From the NCBI GenBank assembly GCA_021817605.1, contig JAKAUN010000002.1, positions 129,676 to 193,675 of the forward strand: a stretch of DNA of 64,000 nucleotides, read 5' to 3'. Shown one piece after another: positions 41,379 through 50,397 of the stretch. The first letter of the stretch is position 1. Each line of letters starts with the position of its first letter. Position numbers and translations under genes: made by a program. The stretch comes from Thermoplasmata archaeon (GTDB lineage Archaea; Thermoplasmatota; Thermoplasmata; Lutacidiplasmatales; UBA184). The notes under the pieces are model-generated. The model was not told where the DNA came from, searched no databases, and was given only the letters and a program-made list of their open reading frames with translations.

Positions 41379-43049
41379 CTACGGCTCCTGCGCGACGCTC
41401 GGGACCGGCACCGGCATGCGCAGCGGCGAGGGCGTCGGCGCCGGACCGGTCATCGTGGAGGGGAGCGGCTCGCCCCACGGGTCCTCGGTCGCCACCGGCA
41501 CGCCGGCGTAGTAGGAGTAGACCATGTTGAACAGGAAGACGAGCTGGCCGACGCCGAAGATGTAGGCTCCGAGCGTCGCGAGGAAGTTGAGGAACTGGAA
41601 GTTGCCCGACCACAGGTAGGTGTAGACCCGCCGGGGCATCCCCTCGGCACCGAGGATGAACATCGGGAAGAGCAGGAGGTTCACGCCGACGTAGGTCAGG
41701 AGGAAATGGACGTGGCCGAGCCGCTGGCTGTACCAGCGCCGGGTCAGGATAGGGAAGTAGAAGTAGATCCCGGCGAAGATCGCCATCAGGGTCCCGCCGA
41801 GCAGGATGTAGTGGAAGTGGGCCACGACGAAGTAGGTGCCGTGGTAGAGGTAGTCGACGGGGATCGAGGCGAGCATCACGCCGGAGAGCCCTCCGATCAC
41901 GAAACCGGTGATGAACGCGACGCAGAACCACATCGGGACGGCCATCCAGATGCGGCCGCCCCAGAGCGTCGCGACCCAGTTGAACGTCTTGACCGCCGAA
42001 GGCACCGCGATCGCCATCGTGGTGAGCATGAAGACGAACCGCACGTCGGTCGAGATCCCCGTGACGAACATGTGGTGCTCCCAGACGGCGAAGGAGAGGA
42101 CGGCGAAGACGCCGAGGGAGATCGCCATCGCGGCGTAGCCGAAGATGTCCTTGCGCGCGAGCTTCGGGAGAACGGTGGAGATGATCCCGAACGCCGGCAG
42201 GACCATGATGTAGACCTCCGGGTGGGCGAAGAACCAGAAGACGTTCTGGTAGAGCAGCGCCCCACCGAGCGGCGTGCCGTTCGACGCCGCGAGGATGTGG
42301 GTGTGGAAGAGCCGGTCGGAGAGGACCATCGTGAGGCCGATGGAGAGCGACGGGAGGGCGAAGATGAGGAGGACCGAGTTGATGAGGGTCGCCCAGACGA
42401 AGAGCGGCATGTTCCAGTAGTGGACGCCCGGGGCGCGGTGCTTGAGGATGGTGACGAGGAAGTTCACCGCCCCCAGCATGGAGGAGACGGTGAGGATGTG
42501 CAGGCCGAGGATCCACAGGTCGATCCCGTTGCCCGGCATCTGCACCGAGAGCGGCACGTAGCCGGTCCAGCCGGCGTTGGCGTTCGAGAGAAGGAGGATG
42601 ATCCCCGCGGGAGGGAGGAGCCAGAAGGCGATCGCGTTGATGCGCGGGAGCGCCATCTCGCGCGAGCCGATCATCGAGGGGACGAGGAAGTTGCCGAAGC
42701 CGGCCAGGGTCGGCATGATGAACATGAAGATCATCAGCACCCCGTGCATCGTGAACAGGGTCGAGTAGACATCCGGGGAGATCCCGAGGGTCGTCTGGGG
42801 ATCGAGCCCTAGGCCCTGCACGAGGCCGAGGTCGGTGCGGATCAGCATCGCGTAGATCCCGCCGATGAAGAAGAACAGGATCCCGGTGGCGATGTACATG
42901 AGGCCGATGCGCCGGTGGTCGGTGGTGAACAGCCAGGTCTTGATCGCGCGGAGAAGCCACTCGCCCCGGTAGGAGAGCACGCCGAGGAGGAACGCAGCGA
43001 ACCCGAGGACGAGAGCGAGCTCGGTCCCGAGCGACAGCCACGCGGTCAC
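41379..43049 (-). CDS. coxA: Heme-copper oxidase subunit I (A-type cytochrome oxidase)
   Basis: Catalytic subunit that reduces O2 and pumps protons; 556 residues, 12 or more helices. Heme and copper ligands are present: [27 protein letters not shown] (CuB His, cross-linked Tyr and the D-channel-end Glu), EHHMFVTG (CuB His pair) and [12 protein letters not shown] (heme a and a3 His). The K-channel Lys is in [10 protein letters not shown]. The D-channel entrance, normally IGAPDMAFPRMN, reads [12 protein letters not shown], so Glu replaces the entrance Asp. A Pro-rich C-terminal tail follows. The ATG overlaps the gene upstream. Confidence 0.96.
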
Positions 43050-49615: not shown

Positions 49616-49698
49616 GTACGTACCTGCTCGCACGCGTCCCCGGCGAGGCCACCGCGGCGGCCGGCCAGGTGTCCGTACGAACGCGGGCGATAAGTAGC
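49616..49698. promoter_or_regulatory. Divergent promoter region cupredoxin/coxB with GTAC sites
   Basis: The 157-base gap holds GTACGTAC at 49616-49623 and CCGTACGAACGC at 49673-49684. The latter 12-mer is identical to the sequence around the GTAC of the tatA promoter (minus-strand reading). GATAAGTA at 49689-49696 is the TATA candidate for coxB, about 21 bases before the GTG. Spacing to GTAC is 10 here rather than 5, so this is a partial match to the element. Confidence 0.4.
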
Positions 49699-49712: not shown

Positions 49713-49940
49713 GTGGGCGTGTACCCCGCGGAGCCGGTGCGCGCCCCGGCGGCGCCGGTGTGGGCCGCGGCCGTCGGTCTCATCGCCGCGGCGTCGGAGA
49801 GCAACCTCGCGCAGACGACCACGCTCGTCTGGACGTTGGTGGCGATCGGCGCCGCAGGGGCGATCGTGACGTTCGCCATCATGGTCTACGCCCTGCTCAA
49901 GTTCCGGGACCCCGCAACGCGGAGGCGCCGGTATGGTTGA
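49713..49940 (+). CDS. coxB1: Cytochrome oxidase subunit II, N-terminal part (first helix)
   Basis: 75 residues from a GTG: a signal-like segment (APVWAAAVGLIAAAS), then TTTLVWTLVAIGAAGAIVTFAIMVYALLKFRDP, which corresponds to transmembrane helix 1 of subunit II and its cytoplasmic basic end (RRRRYG). It stops with TGA inside the start of the next frame (ATGGTTGA, 49933-49940). Together the two ORFs make one complete CoxB; either the gene is naturally split in the cytoplasmic loop or one base differs from the true sequence. Confidence 0.72.
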   Translation: MGVYPAEPVRAPAAPVWAAAVGLIAAASESNLAQTTTLVWTLVAIGAAGAIVTFAIMVYALLKFRDPATRRRRYG

Positions 49941-50397
49941 GCGGCTCGAGGTCGCCTGGACGCTCGTCGTGGTCGGCCTCCTCACGGGAGTCGCCGTCTA
50001 CTCCACGGTCCTCCTCTACCACCTGGACGCGCTCCCGGCCCATCCCAACGAGTACGTGAACGTCATCGGGCACCAGTGGTACTGGGAGTTCTGCTACCCG
50101 GCGAACAAGACCTGCTTCAACTCGAGCTACGACCCGTCGACCAACAGCGTCTCGGGCGGGGCATTATGGGCGCATCCCGGTTGGGTCGTCCAGCTCAACA
50201 TCACCTCGGCCGACGTCATCCATTCGCTCAACATACCGGCGCTGGGCGTCCGCATCGACGCGATACCGGGCCGGATGAACCACTTCGCCTTCACGGTGCC
50301 GGCCGCCGCCGCGCTCGGCACGATGTACCTCATCCAGTGCACCGAGTTCTGCGGAACGTTCCACGGAACGATGCGCTCGTTCCTCATCGTAAGCTAG
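49933..50397 (+). CDS. coxB2: Cytochrome oxidase subunit II, C-terminal part (helix 2 and CuA domain)
   Basis: 154 residues. It opens MVERLEVAWTLVVVGLLTG, the usual start of helix 2 in CoxB (LEVAWT), then GHQWYWEF (aromatic electron-entry region) and the CuA site: the His of DVIHSLNIPALGV and the C-x3-C-x3-H-x2-M of CTEFCGTFHGTM. Complete CuA ligands mean it takes electrons from a soluble or anchored one-electron carrier rather than quinol. Overlaps the first part by 8 bases, +1 frame. Confidence 0.93.
   Translation: MVERLEVAWTLVVVGLLTGVAVYSTVLLYHLDALPAHPNEYVNVIGHQWYWEFCYPANKTCFNSSYDPSTNSVSGGALWAHPGWVVQLNITSADVIHSLNIPALGVRIDAIPGRMNHFAFTVPAAAALGTMYLIQCTEFCGTFHGTMRSFLIVS

Follow-up and report, generated by a model that had tools for sequence, protein, structure and literature searches.

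In the 64,000-nucleotide stretch of Thermoplasmata DNA analysed here (the window), subunit II of cytochrome oxidase (COX2) is encoded by two open reading frames, ORF1 for helix 1 and ORF2 for helix 2 and the CuA domain, and the two are separate frames in all 80 family genomes that could be judged. It is quite probable, in our view, that an A-family COX2 underwent fission in its cytoplasmic loop, that one mRNA yields both halves, with termination-reinitiation giving the second, and that the halves assemble as two chains. A break between the helices is unusual for the A-family enzyme.

The two frames overlap by eight nucleotides, ATGGTTGA, with ORF2 in the +1 frame relative to ORF1 (Table 1). 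ORF2 begins with MVERLEVAWT and is the sole PF00116 match in its genome, where COX1 is also single. Cupredoxin genes flank the pair on both sides on the other strand, so that ORF1 and ORF2 form a two-gene unit. The start of ORF1 is more likely GTG 49719 than GTG 49713, since a TATA-like box lies 29 nt before the former and a spacing in the same class (27-31 nt) is found in 55 of 72 related loci. An earlier note on this DNA had described ORF1 as a signal-like segment with helix 1, and ORF2 as overlapping it in the +1 frame, beginning at LEVAWT, and carrying the CuA domain. The ORF2 start and its PF00116 match agree with this description, as does the alignment of ORF1 with the helix-1 columns of one-piece COX2 (below).

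Table 1. Features of the split COX2 locus and of the presumed COX1 partner, in window positions.
Feature	Position	Strand	Remarks
COX1, A-family, presumed partner	41379..43049	-	PF00115 1e-144, TIGR02891 1e-176
Palindrome GTACGTAC upstream of ORF1, possible operator	49616..49623	.	sequence
GTACGAAC, second palindrome-like copy	49675..49682	.	same related-locus count as GTACGTAC
TATA-like box ATAAGTA	49690..49696	+	29 nt before GTG 49719
ORF1 open frame	49713..49940	+	75 aa from GTG 49713
ORF1, signal-like N-terminus and COX2 helix 1	49719..49940	+	73 aa from GTG 49719
8-nt overlap ATGGTTGA, ORF2 start and ORF1 stop	49933..49940	+	geometry common to 72/72 judged g1/g25/g29 loci
ORF2, COX2 helix 2 (residues 4-31) and CuA domain	49933..50397	+	154 aa; PF00116 2e-19

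Profile comparisons establish ORF2 as a homologue of COX2: it covers positions 54-191 of the CoxB model and columns 82-236 of a one-piece COX2 profile (E 1e-48). The CuA motif, C-x-E-x-C-x3-H-x2-M, is present, and H97, C136, E138, C140, H144, and M147 are invariant across 19 sequences. An AlphaFold2 model of ORF2 has one helix (4-31) and a CuA fold at a mean pLDDT of 91, and the closest solved structure found by Foldseek is a cytochrome c oxidase chain, 7ate_B (E 1.2e-12). The COX1 of the window is identified as A-family by its sequence matches. When compared with the PDB it finds aa3-type chains first, near 1e-123, with ba3 chains near 1e-13, and a B-type ba3 identity was rejected on this ordering together with the TIGR02891 match (1e-176). 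By the features expected of CoxB, the CuA domain and an A-family COX1 in the genome are present, but the two helices and the CuA domain do not lie in one chain in any of the 80 genomes.

The identity of ORF1 as helix 1 of COX2 is well supported by alignment. Taken singly, the window ORF1 gives a weak match to the CoxB model (E 0.0079, model positions 5-43); 14 of 19 diverse ORF1 sequences match this model at E<=0.05, and none of the 19 matches the Pfam COX2 helix model, with the consequence for annotation that so short an ORF is missed. Searches with ORF1 return generic membrane families, and an ORF1 profile search of the PDB gave no COX2 match. Aligned together, ORF1 sequences match columns 31-71 of the one-piece COX2 profile with a score of 48.6 (94%). 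This is helix 1 and not helix 2, and the score is well above those of the controls, with 35 COX1 windows at or below 17.5 (from an alignment of 20 rows, four of them cut to 14-50 residues) and reversed ORF1 at 14.6. ORF1s of the sister genera g27 and g28 match COX2 columns 30-67 with a score of 32.4 (58%). ORF1 and one-piece COX2 also have in common a W...YA..KFR pattern and a basic C-terminal tail, and both the match to helix 1 and the basic tail suggest that the ORF1 helix has the usual A-type helix-1 polarity. In the joint alignment the cut falls in the loop that joins helices 1 and 2 on the cytoplasmic side, where the earlier note had put it, and this loop is shorter than in one-piece COX2. 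It could be argued that ORF1 is an unrelated small membrane subunit and that COX2 merely lost its helix 1. The upstream position of ORF1 resembles that of subunit IIa of ba3 oxidases (PMC3128077), the single-sequence similarity is weak and the matches are to generic membrane families, and in a family that is probably the Thermoplasmatales a two-helix ORF occupies the same place with a weak helix-1 match (22.2, 4%). However, the profile match to helix 1 and the shared pattern and tail make this explanation an unlikely one.

The split is found throughout the family. A first search of 61 genomes had already found short-framed homologues in the genus. In the full search, 88 of 103 family genomes were matched, 81 of which hold a COX2 of the same type as the window, with the other seven matching through other COX2-like proteins alone; one of the 81 is cut by a contig end, leaving 80 that could be judged. 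None of these 80 has this COX2 in one piece. The same 8-nt overlap is present in 72/72 judged genomes of genera g1, g25, and g29, with ATG as the ORF2 start in 69 and ACG in three. In the eight genomes of the sister genera g26, g27, and g28, the junction is -4 in five (ATG or GTG) and +3, +4, and +6 in one genome each, so that all three phases are represented, two with an in-frame stop. Synonymous change exceeds non-synonymous change (NG86) in both ORFs for most of the 25 closest pairs listed, more strongly in ORF2 than in ORF1; an exception is ORF1 of the pair L065/L081 (0.034 vs 0.037). This pattern shows that both reading frames are maintained by the measure of codon change. The closest named relatives among the best 80 matches bearing names are MAGs of Thermoplasmata, UBA184 and Candidatus Lutacidiplasma silvani among them. 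The earlier note had left room for an indel in place of a real split and had looked to related genomes for an answer; the two-ORF arrangement in 80/80 judged relatives rules out a base error at the junction. That gene decay, or an error of sequencing or assembly, accounts for the split in the window genome is hardly credible: while the assemblies are of metagenome type, nothing specific speaks for an error, and both the 80 split relatives and the maintenance of the two frames speak against it.

Codon usage at the junction shows that the ORF2 ATG is under selection. In a first set of 57 loci, the ORF1 codon overlapping the ORF2 start was TAT (48) or CAT (9) in every case, in comparison to 43 of 434 Tyr codons (10%) being TAT and 53 of 242 His codons (22%) being CAT elsewhere in ORF2. 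The Gly codon before the ORF1 stop varies in these loci (GGT 50, GGC 4, GGA 3), and the stop itself varies among 72 loci (TAA 50, TAG 16, TGA 6). The junction distances of -8, -4, +3, +4, and +6 are all overlaps or short gaps of the kind seen in termination-reinitiation pairs. Short overlaps of -8 and -4 are known archaeal sites of termination-reinitiation; in Haloferax volcanii 62 gene pairs have the -8 overlap, overlapping pairs are enriched for subunits of complexes, and reinitiation is less efficient at -8 than at -4 (all from PMC10666635). Programmed +1 ribosomal frameshifting, giving one normal COX2 chain, was raised in the earlier note and is very unlikely. The +1 relation is constant in 72/72 loci of three genera, three of which lack the ATG, and archaeal frameshifting has been described for a small number of genes and viruses (PMC5009743). 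However, the constant phase is otherwise explained, as no overlap shorter than -8 is available to it (PMC10666635), and the ORF2 ATG is selected. In addition, the varying Gly and stop codons leave no conserved slip site, and the phase differs in the sister genera, in two cases with an in-frame stop, all of which makes a fixed frameshift at the junction unlikely.

The three genomes with ACG in place of the ORF2 ATG are G326 (g1) and G323 and G324 (g25), and their overlapping codon is TAC, not TAT (named copies L168, L176, and L172). These loci fall in two places of a quick tree of the 80 loci, so that two independent T-to-C changes are needed. It is possible that MAG errors lie behind the ACG, although it seems improbable that two lineages would carry one at the same base. 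In G324 a GTG/ATG lies 18-21 nt downstream; G326 and G323 have no nearby ATG, GTG, or TTG that would keep helix 2. In these cases, which comprise at least three species, restart may occur on ACG licensed by coupling, or a +1 slip may give a joined COX2, an account that we offer tentatively as plausible rather than probable. If the coupled restart were true, a natural ACG start would depend on ribosomes just ending ORF1.

Upstream of ORF1, an in-frame GTG or ATG lies 27-31 nt after a TATA-like box in 55/72 related loci; 10/72 have no box by the pattern used, and 7/72 have a box and no start within 27-31 nt. The box-to-start spacing in the 55 loci points to one leaderless mRNA. In the 62 related loci having the box, the 120 nt before it contain two GTWCGTAC-like copies in 34 loci, one in 24, and none in four; these palindromes are possibly an operator.

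Taken in order, the gene for subunit II of an aa3-like oxidase would have been cut between its helices in an ancestor of the family, a single such event being the simplest assumption. A single leaderless mRNA would carry ORF1 and ORF2, and ribosomes finishing ORF1 would restart at the overlapping ORF2 ATG. The helix-1 protein would run from outside to inside, with the helix-2/CuA protein in the reverse direction, and the two, made side by side, would come together on COX1 to form a subunit II of two chains. We infer the single transcript, the reinitiation, the assembly, and the function of the complex. Counted in favor of this reading were the split in 80/80 genomes, the helix-1 and ORF2 profile matches, the selected ATG, the varied sister junctions, the known -8/-4 reinitiation sites (PMC10666635), and the TATA-like box; counted against it were the ACG in three genomes, the weak single-sequence ORF1 matches, and the poorer reinitiation at -8.

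Among known systems, subunit IIa of B-type oxidases, which the earlier note does not mention, comes closest. In the ba3 oxidases of Thermus and Aquifex, subunit IIa is a separate helix of 34-41 aa at the place of helix 1, encoded just upstream, with polarity opposite to the A-type helix 1 and a B-family COX1, and fission between the helices was proposed for B-type subunit II by the authors (PMC3128077). As in the window, the upstream helix is detached and subunit II has one helix and a CuA domain; in contrast, the window COX1 is A-family, and ORF1 aligns in the usual sense. Split mitochondrial cox2a/cox2b likewise place COX2 in two chains, presumably assembled, but break beyond the two helices, in the intermembrane part, whereas the window break precedes helix 2. 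The statement of the earlier note that known split cox2 genes break elsewhere holds where checked: in wasps both helices lie on cox2a (PMC5374615), and ORF2 residues 5-53 match a chain of PDB 9f5x other than the CuA chain. Termination-reinitiation pairs (PMC10666635) are like the window pair in their -8/-4 overlaps, short gaps, and genes of one complex; unlike the usual pairs, the window genes are halves of one ancestral protein, and three genomes have ACG at the overlap. The genome paper of the order describes this complex IV locus, with an A1-type coxA and a coxB (PMC9287336), and the word "split" is absent from its main text. No report of an A-family COX2 split between its helices was found in the open-access journal articles searched.

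Throughout this family of soil archaea, a core respiratory subunit of an A-family oxidase is naturally divided at the helix hairpin. Inter-helix fission, as proposed for the ba3 oxidases, does appear to occur, and the detached helix can stay recognizable. If the complex works as described above, a CuA-bearing subunit II would have no need for a covalent hairpin. The set of junctions (-8, -4, +3, +4, +6, and ACG for ATG) could serve as a comparative series for archaeal translational coupling.

In the COX1 tree, seven family rows form one clade (100/100), which divides into g1/g25/g29, all with the -8 junction, and g26/g27/g28, with the other junctions. The neighbor of this clade, with weak support (91/74), is L202, whose family has a one-piece COX2 (L105, L117), followed by alphaproteobacteria, where COX2 is likewise in one piece. 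The simplest reading of the tree is one fission before the two groups parted; two separate fissions in the same loop are a less simple alternative. Statements on restriction to the family cover Thermoplasmata genomes and the best 80 named matches. A survey of the class beyond the family yielded at least 65 loci, 41 with two helices in one ORF and 20 with one helix, while three are cut by contig ends (L052, L262, L274) and one is ambiguous (L292); L038 and L106 are the same place, and L258 and L268 were missed in the script count of two-helix ORFs, where the CuA pattern failed, though their helices were detected.

Two families of the same class, f19 and f31, one of which is probably the Thermoplasmatales, also have a COX2 with a single helix beside an A-family COX1, and a small ORF for a membrane protein lies just upstream in 8/8 loci examined. 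In these loci (L110-L113, L115, L118, L120, L121) the small ORF encodes two helices and is overlapped or closely followed by COX2. It is possible that this is another form of separated helix 1. Unlike in the window, the COX1 of f19/f31 branches far away and the small two-helix protein is weakly similar to helix 1; comparisons of small-protein alignments gave 4% for A4 vs A3 and 38% for A2 vs A4. A common origin with the one-helix COX2 of Thermoplasmatales was considered and found unsupported, given the distance of the COX1 proteins and the weak similarity of the small proteins.

Some COX1 frames in the family are unusually long. In g26/g28 (L203, L206, L207) the open COX1 frame extends over 781-809 aa, in comparison to 556 aa for the window gene, and is possibly joined to another subunit. 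Four loci (L249, L250, L251, and L252, in G088, G016, G203, and G195; L250 is the same place as L031) have an extra open frame of 913-1001 aa that combines a divergent COX1, one helix, and a cupredoxin-like domain lacking the CuA C-x-E-x-C motif.
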